The position numbers and the translations under genes are program-made. Under the pieces are notes generated by a model, which saw nothing but the letters and a program-made list of their open reading frames with translations, had not been told where the DNA came from and searched no databases. 64,000 bases of DNA from Rothia sp. (in: high G+C Gram-positive bacteria) (lineage in GTDB: Bacteria > Actinomycetota > Actinomycetes > Actinomycetales > Micrococcaceae). Shown here piece by piece: positions 44,757 to 49,874 of this stretch. Each line of letters begins with the position of its first letter. Within the stretch, counting starts at the first letter, position 1. The stretch lies in contig JAUNHE010000004.1 in assembly GCA_030524105.1 (NCBI GenBank), forward strand, positions 146,075 to 210,074, written 5' to 3'.

Positions 44757-44891
44757 TGGCACAGTTTACACCAAACCACCGGGCCTTATTGAGTCAAGCA
44801 GGCTAAACACGGCGGGTGTTGTTCTGTCTTTTTGCCGGTGGTATTCATGGTTGTGTCTTTTTGAGCTACTGCACCGCGAATTTGGGCAAGA

Positions 44892-44930
44892 TTGACAGCG
44901 CACCGCCGGCAGCGTACAGTTTTCTGTACA
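44892..44930 (+). promoter_or_regulatory. yefM-yoeB promoter and operator
   Basis: TTGACA (44892-44897), a 17-nt spacer and TACAGT (44915-44920) form a good sigma-70-type promoter. Overlapping its -10 box is a perfect palindrome GTACAG-tttt-CTGTAC (44914-44929), including TGTACA, the core of the known YefM operator. This supports autorepression by the YefM-YoeB complex. Confidence 0.75.
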
Positions 44931-44941
44931 GGAGGTGGATC

Positions 44942-45196
44942 GTGAAAACACTCAGCTATACCGAGTCCCGCGCCAACTACGCCCAAGTACTCGACGAGGT
45001 CGTCAATAACCGTGAGGAAACCATCATCACGCGCGCCGGCCGTGAGCCCGTCGTGATTGTCTCACTCGCTGACTACGAGTCTCTGCGAGAAACAGCCTAC
45101 CTACTCCGTTCCCCCGCCAACGCCCGGCGGCTGCTCGACTCCATCGAGAATCTAGAAAACGGCGGCGGGACCCACCGCAGTCTCGTCGAAGACTGA
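44942..45196 (+). CDS. yefM: Antitoxin YefM (Phd/YefM family)
   Basis: An 84-aa antitoxin beginning at GTG 44942, 6 nt after AGGAGG. The N-terminal DNA-binding part MKTLSYTESRANYAQVLDEV and the central REPVVIVSLADYESLRETAYLL are classical for YefM. It neutralises the toxin through its disordered C-terminus (SIENLENGGGTHRSLVED) and represses its own operon. The toxin gene begins 3 bp downstream. Confidence 0.93.
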   Translation: MKTLSYTESRANYAQVLDEVVNNREETIITRAGREPVVIVSLADYESLRETAYLLRSPANARRLLDSIENLENGGGTHRSLVED

Positions 45197-45199
45197 GAC

Positions 45200-45460
45200 G
45201 TGATCCTCACCTGGGATGAGGCCGCCTGGGAAGACTACCTATGGTGGCAGACTGCGGATCGACGCACGCTCAAGCGTATCAACCGGCTCATTAAGGATAT
45301 TGCCCGTAACGGCAACGAGGGCATGGGTAAGCCCGAAGCACTCAAGTATGGCCTGTCCGGTTACTGGTCACGGCGTATCAGCGACGAGCACCGGTTGGTC
45401 TACAAAATTGTCGACAACGAGATCCGCATCGCCGCCTGCCGCTACCACTACGGCCAATAA
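45200..45460 (+). CDS. yoeB: Toxin YoeB (ribosome-dependent mRNase)
   Basis: An 86-aa RelE-superfamily toxin. It has MILTWDEAAWEDYLWWQ, NRLIKDIAR, PEALKYGLSGYWSRRISDEHRLVY and the C-terminal AACRYHYGQ, which contains the conserved His-Tyr pair at the active end. The expected catalytic Glu, Arg and His positions appear present, so it is probably functional. GTG start, co-transcribed with yefM. Confidence 0.93.
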   Translation: MILTWDEAAWEDYLWWQTADRRTLKRINRLIKDIARNGNEGMGKPEALKYGLSGYWSRRISDEHRLVYKIVDNEIRIAACRYHYGQ

Positions 45461-46458: not shown

Positions 46459-46752
46459 GTGTACGTGCGCTGGTTTCGCAAGCTCTCAGACCCGCAGGGT
46501 AGGGCGCGTATCAATATCGCGATACGGCGCTGCGAAGTTGCTGGAAAAATGGTGGGCGACATCAAGCCTATTGGAGGCGGCGTCTCTGAATTGCGCATTC
46601 ATCTTGGCCCCGGTTACCGAATCTACTACATGACAAAGGACAACGAGATCATGCTGTTGCTCATCGGAGGCGACAAGTCCACCCAGCAACGAGACATTGC
46701 AAAGGCCAGGCGATTGGCCGCAGAAATTATCGAGGAGGGATTATGGCAGTGA
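46459..46752 (+). CDS. HigB/RelE-type toxin (phage Gp49-like, addiction module killer)
   Basis: A 97-aa toxin. Motifs VRWFRKLSDPQGRARINIAIRRCEVAGKMVGDIKPIGGGVSELRIHLGPGYRIYYM are typical of the toxin that is encoded before its antitoxin in these modules. GTG 46459 lacks a ribosome-binding site. Reading from an in-frame CTG at 46438 adds LEIKQTA, which fits the usual family N-terminus and coincides with the predicted transcription start, so translation may be leaderless. It overlaps the antitoxin gene by 10 bp. Confidence 0.88.
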   Translation: MYVRWFRKLSDPQGRARINIAIRRCEVAGKMVGDIKPIGGGVSELRIHLGPGYRIYYMTKDNEIMLLLIGGDKSTQQRDIAKARRLAAEIIEEGLWQ

Positions 46753-47036
46753 AAATCAGCACCTGGGATGCTAGCGAATATCTTGAAACCGAAGAAGACA
46801 TCGCAGCCTACCTCAATGCAGCTCTCGAAGATGGTGATCCATCTCTACTTCAAGCAGCACTTGGCGATGTCGCCAAAGCACGTGGAATGTCTGTCATTTC
46901 ACGGGAAGCCGGCGTCGGACGCGAGTCCCTCTATAAGTCTTTGTCCGAATCTGGTAACCCATCATGGCAGACGATGTCCAAGGTTATTACGGCGCTCGGA
47001 CTCAAAGTTGAATTCAAGGTAGCGCCTGCGCCGTGA
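46743..47036 (+). CDS. HigA-like antitoxin (addiction module antidote)
   Basis: A 97-aa protein with the family start STWDASEYLETEEDIAAYLNAALEDGDPSLLQAALGDVAKARGMS and a helix-turn-helix in SVISREAGVGRESLYKSLS. It would neutralise the toxin encoded just before and bind the GTATCC palindrome. GAGGAGG precedes the ATG inside the toxin gene. Confidence 0.9.
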   Translation: MAVKISTWDASEYLETEEDIAAYLNAALEDGDPSLLQAALGDVAKARGMSVISREAGVGRESLYKSLSESGNPSWQTMSKVITALGLKVEFKVAPAP

Positions 47037-47249: not shown

Positions 47250-47623
47250 TGGTGGAGATGCGGGGAATCGAACCCCGGTCCGATGAGCCTTCGTCAGGGC
47301 TTCTCCGTGCGCAGTTTACGGGTCGGTATTTTTCGGCTCCAGCACTTGCGTAAACACTGATGCTGCCAAACCTATTCGTATAAACGTCCCTTACTCCCCT
47401 ACGACCAGGAAGCAAGGCAGTGGCCTTTTAAACTGATACCAGGAAACTGAGTCAAAGGCTAACTCAGGCCGGCAGATTCGCTAGTCGCGCTTAAGCAGCG
47501 AGAGCGAAATCAGTGCGCTTAGATTCTGCACTTATTGTTTTGCAGAGGGTATTAACGAGTGTCCTCTACATCCTCGGCACGCTTCACCTGTCTCAAATCA
47601 CATCGTCGAAACCGATCATCCCC
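47250..47623 (-). ncRNA. ssrA: Transfer-messenger RNA (tmRNA)
   Basis: A 374-nt tmRNA for ribosome rescue. The 5' end GGGGATG pairs with the 3' CATCTCC before A-CCA, including the G3-U70 pair that specifies alanine. The T-arm GGTTCGATTCC and the conserved GGTTTCGACG near the 5' end are present. The tag reading frame (complement 47491-47529) begins with resume codon GCA and encodes AESKRTDFALAA followed by TAA, a tag of the Micrococcus/Arthrobacter type. It acts with SmpB, encoded 1.8 kb upstream beyond the Abi_2 cassette. Confidence 0.97.
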
Positions 47624-47677
47624 TTATGCTTCTATCAAAGAAACCCGCCAAAATCACGACGGAGCATTAAATATACA

Positions 47678-47717
47678 CCCCCCAGGCCCAAAAGCCAAGG
47701 GGGTGCCCCAATCCTAG
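47678..47717 (-). terminator. Terminator repeat copy A (end of abi)
   Basis: The C6-AGGCCCAAAAGCC-AAG5 hairpin followed by TGCCCC and ATCCTAG. It is nearly identical to copy B at 48750-48790, differing in one G of the G-run and one A/G. Here it overlaps the abi stop codon. On the minus strand the stem is CCCCC/GGGGG plus GGC/GCC around a TTTTG-type loop. Confidence 0.8.
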
Positions 47718-48631
47718 TCCCAGAGACTGGACAACTGCCAGTCCTCGGGTGCTCCAGTTCGCGAAAATGGAACCAGGTCATTGTGGGGGTATGCCTTTAA
47801 TAGGTTCGGCAGGGCTGCCCCGTCCGATATTTTAAGCGTGCGCAATAGATACTGAACCATAGTAGCCTGCCCAAAAAAACGAGATTTTGTCTGATTAAGA
47901 ATACGCAATTCTTCGCGGTTACTTTCCTTGGGATTCATATCAAAAACACGGTTAAAAACCCGGGCATTATGCGCTGCATAATTACGCAACACGTTCAGAG
48001 ACCGCATCCAAGACTCAAATTGCGGTGCAGACAAACCAGCCTCCTGTGCAACTGTATCTCGCGCACGCCGCGGAGAGAACCTATACAAGTGGGAGAGCAT
48101 GCCCCAGTCCATAACCTCCACAGCAGCCCAAACCGGCAATCTGCCAGCATACTGATATCTATGATGCTTTACAAAATCTTCCCGAGATTTTTTTACAGCG
48201 GCATCAAAAGTCCCCTTCCATACGTCAAAATTAGTCCGGTTTTTCTCACTAGGGTGAGGTTGCTTGGCCAATTTTGATTTCTGGTCAAGGATTTCGTGCA
48301 CATACGGGTCAATACGGCCAAGTTCATGCCCAAGTAGAGCACGTATCGCCAGTTCAATCCCGGTGAGCTCACAAAAAAGGAGGTGCCTAAGCTGCTCATC
48401 AAAACGATAAAGTTTAACCACCAGCTCAAAGCTTGCCCCCGGCTTAAAACTATCTTGGGCTTTACCATCCCGAAACTCTCGCATGGGATACCAGTATCCA
48501 GAAAGCCTATAGTAATTGAGGTGATGTAGCTGTTCAATGGCCTTACCCTTGTCAGCAACTTCCATCCCCCGGCAAGTCAATAACTCAACCTGCTCCGCGT
48601 AGGTACGAAAAGTTTTGTAATCAGCTGTCAT
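47714..48631 (-). CDS. Abi_2-family abortive infection protein (AbiD/AbiF-like, HEPN-type)
   Basis: A 305-aa protein of the Abi_2 family: HLNYYRLSGYWYPMRE near the N-terminus, LYRFDEQLRHLLFCELTGIELAIRALL in the centre and SLNVLRNYAAHNARVFNR towards the end. The last contains R216-N-x3-H221 (RNYAAH), the RNase signature of HEPN proteins, so RNA cleavage during phage infection is a reasonable inference. The start ATG 48631 follows GAGGAG. The gene separates the smpB operon from ssrA and carries a structured RNA element upstream. Confidence 0.88.
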   Translation of the reverse strand: MTADYKTFRTYAEQVELLTCRGMEVADKGKAIEQLHHLNYYRLSGYWYPMREFRDGKAQDSFKPGASFELVVKLYRFDEQLRHLLFCELTGIELAIRALLGHELGRIDPYVHEILDQKSKLAKQPHPSEKNRTNFDVWKGTFDAAVKKSREDFVKHHRYQYAGRLPVWAAVEVMDWGMLSHLYRFSPRRARDTVAQEAGLSAPQFESWMRSLNVLRNYAAHNARVFNRVFDMNPKESNREELRILNQTKSRFFGQATMVQYLLRTLKISDGAALPNLLKAYPHNDLVPFSRTGAPEDWQLSSLWD

Positions 48632-48649
48632 AGGCACTCCTCAGTACAG

Positions 48650-48700
48650 CAAAAACCGGCCCTGGACTCTTGTGCAACTGCACAAGGAGCGGAACCGGTC
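48650..48700 (-). ncRNA. Structured U-tailed RNA upstream of abi (abiF-motif candidate)
   Basis: On the minus strand an inner hairpin CTTGTGC-AGTT-GCACAAG (complement 48669-48686, perfect 7-bp stem) is enclosed by ACCGG (complement 48695-48699) and CCGGT (complement 48655-48659), then a T-run. The unpaired stretches TTCCGCTC and AGTCCAGGG leave room for further pairing. It ends 20 nt before the abi start. A conserved 'abiF' RNA motif upstream of Abi_2 genes has been described; whether this is a member cannot be decided here. A premature terminator is the alternative. Confidence 0.55.
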
Positions 48701-48749
48701 GTGTTACTCACATACTACCATCTGACAGCGAGAAGTCAATAAAAATAAA

Positions 48750-48790
48750 CCCCCCAGGCCCAAAAGCCAAGGGGGGTGCCCCGATCCTAG
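48750..48790 (-). terminator. Terminator repeat copy B (end of prfB-smpB operon)
   Basis: C6-AGGCCCAAAAGCC-AAG6 followed by TGCCCCGATCCTAG. Read on the minus strand, the 6-bp C/G stem plus GGC/GCC pairs is followed by TTTATTTTTATT, a proper intrinsic terminator starting 13 bp after the DUF4190 gene. It is the near-identical partner of 47678-47717. Confidence 0.85.
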
Positions 48791-48802
48791 AGGTAAAAGC
48801 TC

Positions 48803-49336
48803 CTAGCGGCTCAGATTATCATTAGTCCATTCAGTCACGCACTGCTCAAAGGCCGCATTATCGTTAACGTACTGGGAGCAGTGCTGCATGGCATCACTGC
48901 CAACCCTAAACAGGAAGATTGTGAAAATCGCCATCATAATGCCCAGCACCAGGGAGATAGACCCCAAAACAATACCTGTAATAGCCATGCCTTTTTTAGC
49001 GGCAGCAACCTTGCGCAGCTTCACGAAGGCCACAATACCCAAGATGATAGCTAGCAGGCCCAGAATACCACCAGTACCAAAAACAAAGGACAGGGGCAGC
49101 CCAACAATGCCCAGGATCATCGAAGCCAAGGCCAGGCCTGAACCGGCAGGTTTAGCAGCTGGCTCATACCCTACGGGGGAACTATAAGCATAGGAAGAAT
49201 CATAGTTCTGCACCGGGGGCGCAGGGGGCGTATTCTGTCCTTGCTGAGCGGGAGCCGCCCAGGATCCAGACTGCCCCTCTGACCCCTGTCCAGTAGGATT
49301 ACCCTGATTATTCTGACCGTATCCGTTCTCAGACAT
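48803..49336 (-). CDS. DUF4190-type membrane protein
   Basis: A 177-aa protein with a Gly/Gln/Pro-rich tail of about 65 residues (NGYGQNNQGNPTGQGSEG...), membrane segments LALASMILGIVGLPLSFVFG and LGLLAIILGIVAFVKLRKVA, a third segment, and a C-terminal part with a Cys pair (MQHCSQYVNDNAAFEQCVTEW). Function unknown. It is 46 bp behind smpB and shares its terminator, so it is probably in the same operon. Confidence 0.75.
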   Translation of the reverse strand: MSENGYGQNNQGNPTGQGSEGQSGSWAAPAQQGQNTPPAPPVQNYDSSYAYSSPVGYEPAAKPAGSGLALASMILGIVGLPLSFVFGTGGILGLLAIILGIVAFVKLRKVAAAKKGMAITGIVLGSISLVLGIMMAIFTIFLFRVGSDAMQHCSQYVNDNAAFEQCVTEWTNDNLSR

Positions 49337-49382: not shown

Positions 49383-49874
49383 TTAGCCTAGGTTTCTATA
49401 CCGCATAGCACGCGCCGCCTCAAGATTATCTTGACGCTCACGCAGGGCCTGCCGCTTGTCGTATTCACGTTTACCGGTAGCTAAAGCAATCTCAACCTTT
49501 GCCCGCCCCGAACTAAAATACAGTTTAAGCGGTACAACCGTATAGCCACTCTCTTTAAGCTTTTGTTCTAGCTTATTAATTTCTGAACGATGCAGCAAGA
49601 GTTTACGCTTACGGCGCGCAGAATGATTAGTCCAAGATCCTCGGCCATACTCTGCAATATGAATCCCTTCCAACCAGAGTTCGCCCTGGTAAACCTGGCA
49701 AAAACCGTCTGTCAGTGAAGCTCCACCGTCTCGTAGGGATTTAACTTCGGTTCCCTGCAACACAATACCGGCCTCAAATGTTTCTACAATATTATAGTTG
49801 TGGCGAGCCCGCCTATTTGATGCAATAACCTGATTATTAGGGTCAGTTTCTTTCTTTTTCTTTTTTGTTGCCAT
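49383..49874 (-). CDS. smpB: tmRNA-binding protein SmpB
   Basis: Binds tmRNA and brings it to stalled ribosomes. The 163-aa protein has [34 protein letters not shown] and, near the end, [17 protein letters not shown], both hallmark SmpB sequences. It overlaps prfB by 32 bp. In most Actinobacteria ftsE and ftsX stand between prfB and smpB; they are absent here. Confidence 0.97.

Follow-up and report, generated by a model that had tools for sequence, protein, structure and literature searches.

The window considered here is a stretch of 64,000 nucleotides (nt) of Rothia sp. DNA (GCA_030524105.1, contig JAUNHE010000004.1, positions 146,075 to 210,074 of the forward strand). On its minus strand is an Abi_2 gene directly preceded by a short leader RNA, the two lying between a DUF4190 gene and ssrA. 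A sequence-only reading had earlier drawn this pair at 47714-48700; the coordinates are right and the observation as such was confirmed. The gene, the fold of its product, the catalytic motif, the conservation of promoter-like positions and U-tract, the conserved and covarying RNA, and the linkage between RNA and gene were all computed directly, and the RNA-Abi_2 cassette as such is well supported.

The reading frame at 47714-48637 of the minus strand corresponds to the Abi_2 gene. A better start, read by eye, is ATG48631, which has AGGAG ahead of it and would give an Abi_2/AbiD/AbiF-type HEPN protein of 305 amino acids (47714-48631). The product matches Pfam PF07751 with 165.1 bits (gathering cut-off 25.6), PADLOC AbiD (E value 6.4e-59), and PbAbiF (PDB: 8vz6; E value 9.7e-36). 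An AlphaFold model computed from an alignment of the protein has a predicted local distance difference test score (pLDDT) of 95.5, and the results from a fold search indicate that it shares the fold of PbAbiF, at 28-30% amino acid identity. The HEPN motif R-N-x3-H, which had been read from the letters, is indeed present as R216-N217-Y-A-A-H221 (47969-47986, minus strand), and fits the catalytic consensus R-[NHD]-x3-H. R216, N217, and H221 are invariant among 58 aligned Abi_2 proteins, and RN...H is found in all 66 full-length Abi_2 proteins linked to the RNA; another 27 linked open reading frames are incomplete, cut off by a stop or where the stretch ends. The protein is an Abi_2 of the HEPN RNase type, with predicted RNase activity and toxicity.

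The leader RNA, an actinobacterial AbiF-type RNA, occupies 48648-48705 of the minus strand, based on model R2, fold and covariation; its score of 53.6 bits with R2 is not independent, since the 58 sequences behind that model include the one from the window. All parts of the element that had been described from the letters, i.e., a 7-bp hairpin, an ACCGG/CCGGU frame and a U-run, are present, although the outer stem is in fact 9 bp long. This outer stem (GACCGGUUC/GGGCCGGUU) is combined with a 1-nt bulge, the inner stem, a CCA bulge, and the U-run at 48655-48651. The inner hairpin CUUGUGC-AGUU-GCACAAG (48669-48686, minus strand), which covaries between relatives, forms a perfect 7-bp helix inside ACCGG/CCGGU, followed by the U5 run. 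The fold of 48620-48760 has an energy of -54.7 kcal/mol (z -2.94), which none of 200 shuffles equalled. Upstream, on the same strand, are a -35-like TTGACT (48734-48739) and, after a 16-nt spacer, a -10-like TAGTAT (48712-48717), with a predicted start at A48705. Among 82 Abi_2-linked copies of the RNA the promoter positions are moderately conserved: T, T, and G reach 51%, 72%, and 54%, respectively, at -42 to -40, only A or T is found at -18, and T reaches 74% at -13; the -35-like element of the window lies 2 nt nearer to the RNA than in this set. Also seen in these copies are a start at CA, with A in 95% at -6, and a U-tract, with T in 70-85% at +5 to +9.

The RNA belongs to a conserved actinobacterial group defined by the core GACCGGUUCCGC...GUCCAGGGCCGGUC, the inner stem of which covaries. 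Scans with the exact pattern returned at least 118 stretches in species genomes and 18 in IMG/VR, together at least 136 copies, and the 80 species-genome matches that were listed all bear names which we take to be those of actinobacteria. The window contains the pattern once, against 0 occurrences expected. With model R2, 40 of 295 genomes of the family have a match at E≤0.001, nine of these matches being weak (23-26 bits), and the own genome has one. Within the family, the same core is found again ahead of Abi_2 homologues, and 94.3% of cells are paired in an alignment of 18 sequences, compared with 88.8% after shuffling. An alignment of 58 distinct Abi_2-linked copies, that of the window among them, has 95.3% of cells paired (88.5% shuffled) and 73 cells changed on both sides (22.2 shuffled), and controls in which the structure was slid along the alignment have 28-57% paired. 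The outer stem is near-invariant in its letters, and the inner stem varies while its pairing is kept. Both alignments are strongly positive for a conserved structure in related Abi_2 loci, a check for which the sequence-only reading had called. One Streptomyces match to the pattern (L119) scores 32.3 bits over part of R2, lacks the conserved flanks, and is probably due to chance.

Membership in the published abiF RNA motif had been raised as a possibility for this hairpin and was rejected. The Rfam abiF covariance model (RF03085) has no match at E≤10 in 47600-48900, while the RNA of the C. difficile phage phiC2, employed as positive control, reaches 37.6 bits, just over the 37-bit cut-off. Nor does Rfam abiF match elsewhere in the own genome, the control genomes of the same scan being likewise without a match, and model R2 does not detect the phiC2 RNA. 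The RNA is a conserved family or lineage separate from Rfam abiF. Another Rothia Abi_2 locus (L024) has a weak Rfam abiF match of 29 bits, below 37. More distant Abi_2 genes of the family (L005, L013, L024, L044, L047, L050, and L051) are preceded by other hairpins of apparently similar build, e.g., GAUCAGCCCG..CGGGCUGAUUUUC and GUUCAGCCCGC..GUGGGCUGGAU.

Among the copies of the RNA (at least 136), 94 have an Abi_2 frame on the same strand within 1.6 kb downstream, in 93 cases within 250 nt; 34 are without Abi_2, a six-frame search of their whole loci having found none either, and eight offer less than 400 nt of sequence to judge from. Because the element is conserved, covaries, and is linked to Abi_2 across actinobacteria, it is a real RNA tied to this gene, which supports the earlier suggestion of a regulatory or antitoxin-type RNA. 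For 12 strong R2 matches that lie away from Abi_2 matches, a hidden Markov model (HMM) search was negative in 11 and revealed a remnant next to the RNA in one (L257); inspection by eye shows the beginning of an Abi_2-like frame, soon interrupted, at L262, L265, and L266. An intact leader RNA before an Abi_2-like start that breaks off, i.e., toxin lost and RNA kept, is seen at L139, L153, and L200 (by regular expression), L257 (by HMM), and L110, L201, and L265 (by eye). Curtobacterium genomes have the RNA ahead of a full-length Abi_2 (L168), a 259-amino-acid frame (L108), and a broken Abi_2 (L139). Two tandem RNA copies before one Abi_2 gene occur in the genomes G044 and G015 (L268:1966-2019 with L045:1411-1467, and L003:1202-1377), an arrangement reminiscent of the two motifs of RCd22, and the 39.5-kb viral contig IMGVR_UViG_2872069584_000006 (L058, L059) contains two RNA+Abi_2 cassettes, with proteins 55% and 49% identical to that of the window.

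Solitary copies of the RNA are found in phages. A whole-record search for Abi_2 in the 17 IMG/VR records that contain the RNA and in the Curtobacterium phages Olliecat and Buldak gave no match in 12 of the 19; the remaining seven have Abi_2, in three of them just as a short fragment with an internal stop. A looser pattern and R2 add L239, L244, and L245, also without an Abi_2 match, for a total of 15 phage records, or 11 lineages by DNA similarity, in which the RNA is present and no Abi_2 was found. Olliecat and Buldak are complete phage genomes; none of the IMG/VR records is rated ≥90% complete, and several are fragments. L223/L226 and L239 were counted as two lineages, though 506 bp are common to them at about 71%. 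A third Curtobacterium phage, Squircle, was listed as well. In an alignment fitted to the model, the orphan phage RNAs are 94.0% paired (88.0% shuffled) and include 12 double-change cells (4.4 shuffled), the single double change in the outer stem being that of L239. In Olliecat and Buldak, whose inner stems differ, the RNA is located between the genes for the major tail protein and the tail assembly chaperone. A PHROGs scan of 20 neighbour proteins left six without a match; the others include portal (L211), integrase (L209), major head and head-tail adaptor (L212), and, next to Rfam-type orphans, major head (L238) as well as portal and head protease (L243). The RNA of L209 (10442-10481) lies 38 nt after the phage integrase gene and may represent an attachment site inside the RNA gene, or host-flank sequence; a related copy is that of L213 (7326-7364), with 3.1 kb in common. 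A Gordonia phage match (H8) falls in a coding gene. Viral scans with two other hairpin classes returned one contig and none, the one (L269) being without a tRNA gene in its stretch. A DNA region of the lactococcal phage sk1 is said, in a reference title that is our sole source, to protect phage 712 from AbiF; neither sk1 nor 712 has a Rfam abiF match at E≤5, and the cognate lactococcal RNA itself was not searched for.

In five of the 11 phage lineages a tRNA gene on the same strand is no more than 6 nt away from the RNA, compared with a mean of 0.024 lineages and a maximum of two in 20,000 simulations of random placement. The RNA follows tRNA-Ala in L212, precedes tRNA-Met in both L218 and L244/L245, and is located between tRNA-Trp and tRNA-Asn in L221 and between two tRNA-Ser genes in L239. 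When pattern hits are compared, without L239, L244, and L245, a tRNA gene is present within 8 nt of 3/10 orphan viral copies, as opposed to 0/85 linked bacterial, 0/26 orphan bacterial, and 0/8 linked viral ones. Two classes of AbiF-type RNA stand in one tRNA array (650-1500) of the 89-kb viral contig L239, which has no Abi_2 match; besides the copy between the tRNA-Ser genes, this contig has a match to the abiF-type pattern, 2 nt before tRNA-Pro, that is below the Rfam cut-off. Five contigs with the abiF pattern (L234, L236-L239) were scanned with Rfam, and two reach the gathering score; L236, L237, and L239 do not. Ten IMG/VR contigs with the abiF pattern, some of them short fragments, all lack an Abi_2 match, and in none except L239 is the RNA beside a tRNA gene. 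The abiF RNA of cyanophage S-CREM1 is located between tRNA-Asn and tRNA-Gly, 4 nt before the latter, and the 178-kb record has no Abi_2 match.

We propose, with a probability of about 85%, that the RNA and the Abi_2 gene form a two-part AbiF-type, type III-like toxin-antitoxin or abortive-infection cassette with an RNA antitoxin or attenuator. For the transcript, binding, inhibition, and trigger the proposal draws on PbAbiF and C. difficile AbiF/RCd22. A sigma70-type promoter would produce a hairpin RNA of about 55-60 nt, mostly ending at its own U-tract, and read-through past this tract would provide the Abi_2 mRNA. By analogy with PbAbiF and RCd22, the RNA would bind the HEPN ribonuclease dimer and block its active site, and the folded RNA probably keeps Abi_2 switched off. 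Phage infection or stress would upset the RNA supply, such that free Abi_2 might cut RNA and growth would stop; phage-borne RNA without Abi_2 could neutralise the host AbiF. Several results weigh against the proposal. Of the five covariation measures, those for double-change pairs and for further pair types are not above shuffles with either 18 or 58 sequences, because the outer stem hardly varies. The RNA of the window fails the Rfam abiF model, which at E≤5 has no match in four relatives from its class either (L002, L031, L032, and L058), and the U-tract might be just a terminator. Moreover, Abi_2 is absent within 250 nt of 26 bacterial copies for which ≥400 nt of sequence are available, some being visible relics, so the RNA alone is no proof of a working system. 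A hairpin with a conserved U-tract immediately ahead of the Abi_2 gene would also suit a purely cis-acting attenuator or a phage-sensing 5' untranslated region with no antitoxin role in trans, and lactococcal abiD1 has a structured 5' untranslated region bound by a phage protein (PMC12373285). We consider such a leader unlikely. In the outer stem the letters are nearly fixed, and in the inner stem they change without loss of pairing, a pattern suggestive of recognition by a protein; phages retain copies without Abi_2, and the closest solved homologue (PDB: 8vz6) is an RNA-bound complex. It is scarcely credible that the hairpin, despite the U-run that follows it, is a fold due to chance or simply the terminator belonging to the upstream gene, since DUF4190 has its own terminator-like hairpin (48737-48790), promoter-like sequence lies between that hairpin and the RNA, and conservation of the RNA letters and pairing across genera contradicts both.

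As to the phage orphans, we are inclined to regard them as decoy RNAs for counter-defence, which would titrate AbiF-type HEPN toxins and whose ends would, in tRNA arrays, be made by tRNA processing. The kept pairing and double changes of the 15 records argue for such a role, as do the excess of lineages beside tRNA genes over the simulated mean, the confinement of close tRNA genes to the orphan viral class, the two RNA classes in the array of L239, and the position of the S-CREM1 abiF RNA. Precedents for this view are the pseudo-ToxI of a ToxIN-escape phage (PMC5086642), Racrs (PMC10651486), and phage tRNAs reported to defeat RNase defences (PMC11555353). On the other side, six of the 11 lineages are not beside tRNA genes, the L209 copy, to which L213 is related, is perhaps attachment-site or host-flank sequence, the separate counting of L223/L226 and L239 is affected by their common segment, and no virus record from IMG/VR reaches a completeness rating of 90%, several being fragments. 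With slightly more reserve, we lean towards the wider view that solitary AbiF-type antitoxin RNAs serve as natural counter-defence decoys in phages of actinobacteria and, as an independent case, in at least one cyanophage, that these RNAs often lie between tRNA genes or in structural operons and would be freed by tRNA processing or made on phage transcripts, and that L239, with its two classes, would be a small decoy array.

The sequence-only reading had placed the cassette between smpB and ssrA. The gene for the transfer-messenger RNA (tmRNA), with the tag AESKRTDFALAA, was confirmed at 47250-47623 (minus strand), but a DUF4190 gene found by domain search (48803-49336, minus strand) had been overlooked and intervenes on the other side. 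The open reading frame at 49383-49874 (minus strand) is presumably smpB, as judged from its sequence; it aligns with 61-89% identity in congeners whose 1.5-kb flank reaches that far. On either side of the cassette stands a copy of a 54-nt direct repeat (minus strand; 90.7% identity between the copies). Its upstream copy (48737-48790) is the terminator-like hairpin that ends DUF4190, and its downstream copy (47665-47717), one C shorter, is a terminator-like hairpin after Abi_2 that also holds the likely ssrA promoter, read by eye as TTGGCT (47698-47693), 17 nt, and TATATT (47675-47670). At ≤3 mismatches, the 33-nt core of the repeat is matched once in the own genome. Several congeners, e.g., L062, L063, and L065, have by eye a single terminator-like hairpin with the ssrA promoter between DUF4190 and ssrA. 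Since the hairpin is single there and double here, the place of the cassette beside ssrA fits an insertion at this promoter/terminator hairpin which duplicated the element. A functional tie to tmRNA and SmpB, by which the cassette would cooperate in ribosome rescue and owe its position to this, had been suggested as well. Abi_2 adjoins ssrA also in R. aerolata (G002), on the 3' side, and a tmRNA gene is present in 3/94 RNA+Abi_2 loci, one being the same R. aerolata locus, which is more than the 0.25 roughly expected for 8 kb in 3 Mb. Even so, we hold this tie to be very improbable, and the loci counts do not support it. Among the 30 Rothia ssrA loci examined of 35 found, 28 have no Abi_2 within 1.5 kb and the other two have it on opposite sides of ssrA; 91 of the 94 linked loci are without tmRNA, ssrA is a known integration hot spot, and insertion would explain the position. 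Thus, the adjacency is mildly enriched but rare and not conserved. Downstream of ssrA are a YoeB-type toxin gene with a possible preceding partner and a Gp49/HI1420-type pair (44816-45460 and 46459-47036), so that toxin modules lie on either side of it.

These results extend RNA-partnered AbiF systems to an actinobacterial set, the RNA of which is unmatched by Rfam abiF in the five cases tested, and a covariation-supported core is now available for testing. The phage orphans make RNA mimicry against AbiF directly testable and would offer one reason for the presence of non-tRNA RNAs in phage tRNA arrays. PbAbiF with its non-coding RNA (ncRNA) is reportedly the subject of Zilberzwige-Tal et al. 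(2025, Cell). The likeness of the cassette to PbAbiF and its ncRNA (PDB: 8vz6), known here through PMC12373285 and PMC12737573, was judged from the protein; the AbiF family has also been linked to the origin of Cas13 (PMC12165695, PMC12737573). As in C. difficile AbiF/RCd22 (PMC12373285), the RNA is directly upstream, with a promoter and a terminator of its own, and Abi_2 is downstream; unlike RCd22, which contains two Rfam abiF motifs, the window has one hairpin, unmatched by RF03085. With RF03085 it has in common a hairpin with a one-nt bulge at the 5' side, a longer 3' bulge, and an inner stem, located upstream of Abi_2, whereas the conserved letters differ. The presence of abiF RNA in phages as such is already published (PMC9964418). 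In the available part of that article, three phage genomes are among the Rfam abiF members, and the abiF RNA of S-CREM1 is considered likely to function during infection, while a decoy is not among the roles proposed for it. The S-CREM1 RNA resembles the orphans described here in standing in a phage tRNA array with no Abi_2 in the record, although it is of the Rfam class, unlike that of the window. A literature search of partial coverage found no description of phage-borne AbiF decoy RNAs or of the actinobacterial RNA. The cassette is also comparable to ToxIN (PMC5086642), which likewise pairs an RNase toxin with an RNA antitoxin and has a mimic carried by phage, although both the toxin and the RNA are of other families. 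The ToxIN mimic arose in escape mutants, whereas the orphans described here occur repeatedly in the genomes of natural phages, some of them next to tRNA genes.
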